From: Candidatus Ornithospirochaeta stercoripullorum
GTDB taxonomy: Bacteria > Spirochaetota > Spirochaetia > Sphaerochaetales > Sphaerochaetaceae
Assembly (NCBI GenBank): GCA_017694595.1
Contig: JADIMT010000099.1
Span: 1-45,552 of the forward strand
Direction: 5' to 3'
DNA length: 45,552 nucleotides
Each line of letters opens with the position of its first letter. Position 1 is the first letter of the stretch. This document shows positions 1-1,952 of the stretch, piece by piece. The position numbers and the translations under genes were made by a program. Under the pieces are notes generated by a model, which saw nothing but the letters and a program-made list of their open reading frames with translations, was not told where the DNA came from and searched no databases.

Positions 1-123
1 TTTGCCTGCACCTTCCTTCAGATTCCACCTCACGATGGACACCCTTGGTGTTCAGCTAACGGTAAGCACTGCAACTCCCGCAGAGGTCTTTCACCTCCTA
101 GATACGTGACATGCCAGTCACAC
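1..123 (-). mobile_element. 5' part of a group IIC intron (truncated by window edge)
   Basis: Read on the minus strand from 123 to 1, the sequence opens with GTGTGACTGGCATG, a GTGYG-type group II intron 5' end. It then shows the conserved domain I stretch AAGGGTGTCC (around 49-40) followed by GTGGAATCTGAAGGAAG. From memory this order, including the TTAGC before it and GCAAA after it, matches bacterial class C introns such as Oceanobacillus iheyensis O.i.I1. The position also fits: class C introns insert just behind the hairpin of intrinsic terminators, and here the intron begins five bases after the alaS terminator stem. Only the start of the ribozyme is visible. The reverse-transcriptase ORF and the catalytic domain V would lie left of the window, so completeness is unknown. 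Confidence 0.87.
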
Positions 124-154
124 ATAGAAAAGCGGACCCGAAGATCCGCTTTTT
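124..154 (-). terminator. Rho-independent terminator of alaS
   Basis: On the minus strand a stem of about 11 pairs (arm AAAAGCGGATC, 153-143, and its partner 138-128, with one G-U pair) is closed by a UUCG tetraloop. It is followed by TTTTCTAT and then the intron boundary. It lies a few bases after the alaS stop codon, so it ends the panE-dprA-alaS transcription unit. The U-tract region also serves as the 5' exon of the group IIC intron. Confidence 0.88.
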
Positions 155-158
155 GTCA

Positions 159-1952
159 TTATTTCTCAAGTACAGCCTTGATTCTTCTGACTCCCGCAGA
201 AGATGACTGCTCTTTGAGTATATGGAAATGACCCATATCGCCAGTGTGTGTGACATGCGGACCACCACAGACTTCCTTTGAGAAATCGCCAATAGTATAC
301 ACAGTGACTTTCTCACCATACTTTGAGTCAAAGAATGCGATAGCGCCTTCCTTTCTAGCTTCATCAAGCGTCATCGTCTCAACAGTGACAGGAAGATCTC
401 TCTTGATCTGTTCATTTACAAGATCCTCGACTTCCTGGATCTGCTCCTTTGTCATCGGCTCAGGATGAGTAAAGTCGAATCTCAAGCGTTCTGCTGTAAT
501 GTTAGATCCCTTCTGTCCGACATGCGTGCCTAGGACACGGCGAAGAGATGCATGAAGAAGGTGTGTCGCAGTATGCAGCGCTGTTGTCTCATTGCTGTGA
601 TCTGCCAATCCACCTTTGAACTCCTTCTCTGCGCCAGCTCTGGAAAGAGCCTGATGCTTCTCGAATGCTTCGTGGAAGCCAGCTTCATCAACTGTGAAGC
701 CATGCTCTGCAGCCAGCTCCTTAGTCAGCTCAATAGGGAATCCATATGTATCATAAAGCTTGAATGCCAAGCGGCCGGAGATGACACGGTCCTTGCCTTT
801 GAGGAGGTTTGGAAGCATCTTCTCGAACTCTTTCTCACCTTTTGTAAGCGTGACGGAGAACTTTTCCTCTTCCTTCTCCAGCTCTTCATGGATGAATGCC
901 TCATGCTCAGCAATCTCAGGATATGGCTCCTTATAGAGAGCGATTACGACATTCGAAAGCTCTGAAAGGAATGGATGGTCGATACCAATCTTCTTGCCAT
1001 GGCGCACTGCCCTTCTGATCAGACGGCGCAGGATATACCCCTGACCTACATTGGATGGAGCAACACCTTTCTGATCGCCTAGAATAAATACAGATGTACG
1101 GATATGATCGCTGATGATCCTGATAGAGATATCATCCTCTTCATTCTCTCCATACTTCCTGCCTGAAAGTCTCTCAATCTCATGGATGATTGGCTGGAAG
1201 ACTTCAGTCTCATAGACGCTCTTCTTGCCCTGAAGGACAGCAACAGTCCTTTCGATGCCCATTCCTGTATCGATGCACTTCCTCTCCATCTCATGGAACG
1301 TGCCATCCTTCTCTTTGCGATACTGCATGAAGACATCATTCCAGATCTCGAAGTACTTGCCACACTTGCATCCTGGCTTGCAATCAGGACCACAAGCTGG
1401 ACGACCTGTATCGAAGAACATCTCTGAATCAGGACCACAAGGACCTGTCTCTCCTGCCGGTCCCCACCAGTTATCCTCACGTGGCATAAAATAAATATGC
1501 GATGGATCGATACCCAGCTCCTGCCATCTCTGAGCAGCTTCAGTATCACGGGGAACATCTGCATCGCCTTCAAAGACAGTCACAGACAATCTCTCTACAG
1601 GAATTCCCAGTACCTTCGTCAGGAACTCAAAGCTGTAGCCAATCATCTCGTTCTTGAAATAATCGCCAAGTGACCAGTTGCCAAGCATCTCGAAGAATGT
1701 GAGATGATGCGGATCTCCGACGCTATCGATATCACCTGTGCGGATGCACTTCTGATAATCACAAAGCCTTTTTCCTGCTGGATGCTCAGCTCCAAGAATA
1801 TACGGTACAAGCGGATGCATGCCTGCTGTAGTGAAAAGCACAGTTGGATCGTTTTCCGGAATCAGGGATGCTCCCGATATCTGCTTATGTCCCTTAGAGA
1901 CAAAGAAATCAATATACAGCTTTCTCAGCTGATCTGCTGTGATGTCTTTCAT
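159..1952 (-). CDS. alaS: Alanyl-tRNA synthetase, short form
   Basis: Charges tRNA-Ala with alanine in the cytoplasm. The class II catalytic core fills about residues 1-250 (TTAGM at 41-45, the [10 protein letters not shown] region at 91-100, GMGIERT at 231-237). A tRNA-recognition region follows. The editing domain has both zinc-binding pairs: H460/H464 in HTATHLLH and C562/H566 in CGGPH. At 597 residues it stops right after the editing domain, against about 875 for the usual enzyme. The C-terminal dimerisation/C-Ala part is therefore absent, as in other spirochaetes to my knowledge. A cysteine-rich insert ([12 protein letters not shown], 187-198) sits in the catalytic domain. The ATG at 1952 follows AAGGA. 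The gene is last in a unit with dprA-like and panE. Confidence 0.96.

Follow-up and report, generated by a model that had tools for sequence, protein, structure and literature searches.

The first 123 nt of the window, which is the whole 45,552-nucleotide stretch of DNA analysed from Candidatus Ornithospirochaeta stercoripullorum, almost certainly form, when read on the minus strand, the 5' end of a mobile group II intron of the bacterial class C (IIC), which lies after the terminator of alaS. The window is contig C79 of a draft genome (2.04 Mb, 83% complete, 113 contigs). Its base 1 is the end of that contig and falls inside the intron, so that the reverse transcriptase (RT) and domain V cannot appear in it.

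The intron 5' end downstream of alaS

The features at this end of the window are as follows.

1..123, minus strand: 5' end of the group IIC intron, nt 1-123, domain I (RF02001 match and 100% identity to the copy on contig C8)
124..127, minus strand: CTAT, putative IBS1, exon bases -4 to -1 (EBS1-IBS1 covariation)
128..153, minus strand: the insertion target, intrinsic-terminator hairpin of alaS, stem of 11 bp, TTCG loop (DNA fold; 19/19 related junctions likewise)
159..1952, minus strand: alaS, 597-aa alanine--tRNA ligase (NF002436, 1033.8 bits, whole length)

The sole Rfam match in the window is to RF02001 (group-II-D1D4-3), on the minus strand from 39 to 1, with 37.4 bits (the gathering score is 32), and it ends where the contig ends. 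In addition, contig C8 of this genome carries a complete intron whose nt 1-123 agree with minus-strand 123-1 at every base (100% identity). These two results support the sequence-only reading, in which 123-1 had been taken for the 5' region of a class C intron, and the coordinates given there were right. The 5' boundary of the intron, GTGTGACTGGCATG at window position 123, is common to most of the related copies, with small variants.

On the minus strand the order is alaS stop codon, hairpin, CTAT, intron, and alaS is untouched by the insertion. Since both the alaS frame and its terminator are intact, the cost to the host would be small. The alanyl-tRNA synthetase is a short form of 597 aa, and the relatives in the genus align across the same 597 residues. 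When folded as DNA, the alaS hairpin (153-128) has an energy of -9.6 kcal/mol (z = -5.1), with none of 200 shuffled sequences being as stable. The intron had been said to start five bases after a terminator stem with a UUCG loop; the 11-bp hairpin is indeed present at 153-128, but the gap between the stem and the intron is 4 nt (CTAT, 127-124).

The complete intron and further copies in the genome

The intron on C8 is full length (C8:4-1932, 1,929 nt) and has a GUGUG 5' end. Domains I-IV are matched in Rfam by RF02001 (92.9 bits) and RF01998 (49.9 bits), and domains V-VI by RF00029 (42.1 bits). The catalytic triad of domain V, which can be AGC or CGC, with CGC in some introns (PMC4424553), is here CGC (ACCGCCGUAU, facing GAGCCGUAU in the alignment to the model, whose triad is AGC). 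In the predicted fold of domain VI the A at -7 from the 3' end is bulged, being unpaired within the stem.

The intron ORF encodes an intact RT/maturase of 478 aa (L008:413-1849) with a YADD motif. In the family search this protein matched only TIGR04416 (408.7 bits, cut-off 300), RVT_1 and GIIM, and an endonuclease domain was not found. Its nearest solved structure is the GsI-IIC RT (353.6 bits, with LtrA at 175.6 bits). The closest relatives, at 72–82% identity, are from uncultured Spirochaetaceae/Spirochaetales genomes, followed at about 40–60% identity by proteins of Clostridia, Sutterella, Synergistaceae, and others. On these best matches the RT/maturase would be of the class C type, and in its ribozyme domains, triad, bulged A, RT, terminator site, and EBS1-IBS1 pairing the C8 intron has the characters of group IIC. 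The RT, the domain V triad, and the 3' end, for which a search to the left had been recommended, are thus all present on the complete C8 copy, outside the window, and the recommended covariance-model search gives group II matches in Rfam both in the window and on C8. The intact ORF and ribozyme make it plausible that the element is active, as had been suggested; it may splice and be mobile at present.

The same 123 nt are present at 100% identity on two further contigs, C8 and C80, in the latter directly 3' of the fusA terminator. The intron 3' ends on C8 and C37 are identical, while the first 3' exon base is G on C8 and T on C37. At its end, contig C8 overlaps C80 by 126 nt and C37 by 129 nt. 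C37 has an HTH gene and an rlmN-like gene (the latter named by eye from its sequence), which in some twelve relatives adjoin the 3' end of alaS, and in one of these loci (L049) they converge on alaS, as the strands predict for the source genome. The kai-like gene of C8 is directly downstream of fusA in most relatives, where the promoter-like stretch ahead of it is conserved. From this gene order alaS would be paired with the 3' end on C37, and fusA with that on C8, giving the orders alaS-intron-C37 and fusA-intron-C8. The copy at alaS would then be of full length, with its 3' end placed by synteny. The window lacks the intron body and 3' end, the assembly having been broken by at least two copies whose ends are identical, at alaS and fusA, and the intron copies account for the contig breaks beside both genes. 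A third copy in the genome is possible.

A second kai-like ATPase gene, on C30 (L145:3591-4298), is 92% identical to the one linked to fusA and has different neighbours. The possibility that it marks a second copy linked to fusA was discarded, as no fusA adjoins it; it is either a paralogue or on a contig of another species in the bin.

Only 123 nt separate the junction from the end of the contig, the place where misjoins occur most often, and this is a draft assembly of the metagenome type, which raises the question of a chimera having joined an intron end to alaS. This is highly improbable, given that the join falls to the base on the 5' splice site of the intron, with the terminator hairpin as far away as expected, that the same type of junction is seen in many independent assemblies, and that C37 provides the expected other side by synteny.

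There are also diverged pieces of the intron in this genome. On the minus strand of C7 (L010:5724-6286, at about 21.7–22.3 kb) a tRNA-cluster terminator is followed by an intron 5' end (nt 1-123) of 88% identity, which gives way directly, at intron nt 123, to a piece resembling the HNH/C-terminal part of IscB. The arrangement suggests a truncated remnant of the intron that is fused to a remnant of IscB. The IscB-like fragment has no match in plasmids, Pfam, or NCBIfam, and matches longer, full-length homologues (414–434 aa) in relatives. The fragment is named IscB from its likeness to the relative of 414 aa (L111), which was recognised by motifs and not by a family match. On C23 (L033:1273-1711) there is a second, diverged (84%) 3' part, corresponding to nt 1485-1927, with the altered 3' end CTCGGG, which is probably a 5'-truncated remnant.

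The alaS copy, of which 123 nt are visible, might likewise be a dead 5' fragment instead of a full element, a truncated 5' fragment after a tRNA-cluster terminator being present on C7. That is very unlikely: the alaS sequence is 100% identical to the complete copy and the C7 fragment is 88% identical, and the alaS copy stops at a contig end, as does the one at fusA, as would be expected if the assembly broke at a repeat. In addition, the matching 3' end on C37 lies beside genes which, in relatives, are found next to the 3' end of alaS.

Target sites and empty sites

The statement of the sequence-only reading that a terminator is the recognised target of IIC introns is borne out by a set of 19 distinct 5' junctions, those at alaS and fusA and 17 others, drawn from the source genome, its relatives, and more distant hosts. 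All 19 come after a terminator-like hairpin, and the hairpin score at each exceeds the 95th percentile of the scores at random positions of these loci (the median is 26 for junctions and 9 for random positions; Mann-Whitney p about 4e-14).

Across these junctions a four-base loop, EBS1 (intron nt 171-174), covaries with exon positions -1 to -4. The mean number of EBS1-IBS1 pairs is 2.95, compared with 1.85 when shuffled, and none of 3000 shuffles was as good, for a loop that was picked after inspection of the alignment and then shuffle-tested, and in a set of which some ten copies, all from a single Acididesulfobacillus genome, are not independent. With the loop shifted to neighbouring registers the mean is 1.4 pairs at most. 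At alaS, three of the four positions of CTAT pair with the loop ATAA (intron nt 171-174, read on C8). A blind search of domain I for IBS1 complements was dropped, as it gave too many chance matches. The single complete chromosome of Acididesulfobacillus acetoxydans carries nine or more related introns, nearly identical to one another and each at a different site (L073-L078, L080, L081, and L106), which make a good set for target-site analysis.

The alaS loci of 29 genomes at the genus level were compared, 28 of which reach the alaS 3' end, and there is no intron match at this position in any of the 28, most of which have a simple terminator-like hairpin after alaS. The comparison of the alaS 3' end for empty sites, which had been proposed, therefore shows the sequence to be absent in 28 of 28 relatives. 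Similarly, the closer relatives have terminator-like hairpins and no intron between fusA and the kai-like gene. The identical ends at two loci, together with the empty sites in relatives, support the view that the element is a recent one, and are indirect signs that it may splice and be retromobile.

By itself, the window contains only a partial, truncated Rfam match, which might come from another conserved RNA or from an alaS regulatory element that resembles domain I. The probability of this is negligible; it is refuted by the absence of the sequence at alaS in the 28 relatives, by its presence after fusA and other unrelated genes, and by the fact that on C8 it continues as a complete intron that encodes an RT. 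The two observations that had been named in advance as arguing against an intron, a lack of RT and domain V and the presence of the same sequence at this site in all relatives, were both looked for, and neither was made.

The intron family as a whole is patchy, with matches in at least 20 of the 60 relatives searched, a lower bound from few candidates scored per genome.

Proposed insertion mechanism and relationship to known class C introns

Introns of class IIC insert at intrinsic terminators and have no endonuclease domain, and introns without this domain take their primers from the replication fork (PMC4424553). Most bacterial-C introns in 304 surveyed genomes lie just after terminators (PMC8919778). 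The exons are defined by the terminator stem-loop and the IBS elements, and the protein shifts splicing from hydrolysis to branching (PMC7161350). All of the present findings agree with these accounts. For the intron at alaS we infer a similar course, in which the RNP, made up of lariat RNA and RT/maturase, would recognise the terminator hairpin, probably as single-stranded DNA at the replication fork, with the short EBS1-IBS1 pairing helping in target recognition. Reverse splicing would take place 4 nt after the stem, and the intron's own RT would copy it into DNA from a nascent-strand primer, without an endonuclease.

The short intron RNA, the GUGUG-type 5' end, the CGC triad, the RT and maturase domain without an endonuclease, the site just after intrinsic terminators, and the short EBS1-IBS1 pairing are all shared with GsI-IIC of Geobacillus, Ta.it.I1, and B.h.I1 (PMC4424553, PMC8919778, PMC7161350), from which only the host, an uncultured spirochaete, and the sequence differ. 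The IIC-attC introns of integrons are likewise of class C and have a DNA stem-loop as their target (PMC4424553), whereas every junction examined here is terminator-like.

The alaS intron is an ordinary addition to the known IIC family, its relatives occurring in other spirochaetes, in Clostridia, and in further bacteria, and the understanding of IIC introns is unchanged by it. It does provide a well-documented IIC case from uncultured spirochaetes, with occupied and empty sites and with EBS1-IBS1 covariation at terminators. Somewhat short of probable, though worth considering, is that a spirochaete-associated IIC lineage may be expanding at present within this genus of uncultured spirochaetes by way of the terminators of housekeeping genes. 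If this is so, the mobility of IIC introns outside the Firmicutes could be studied in this lineage as a natural system.
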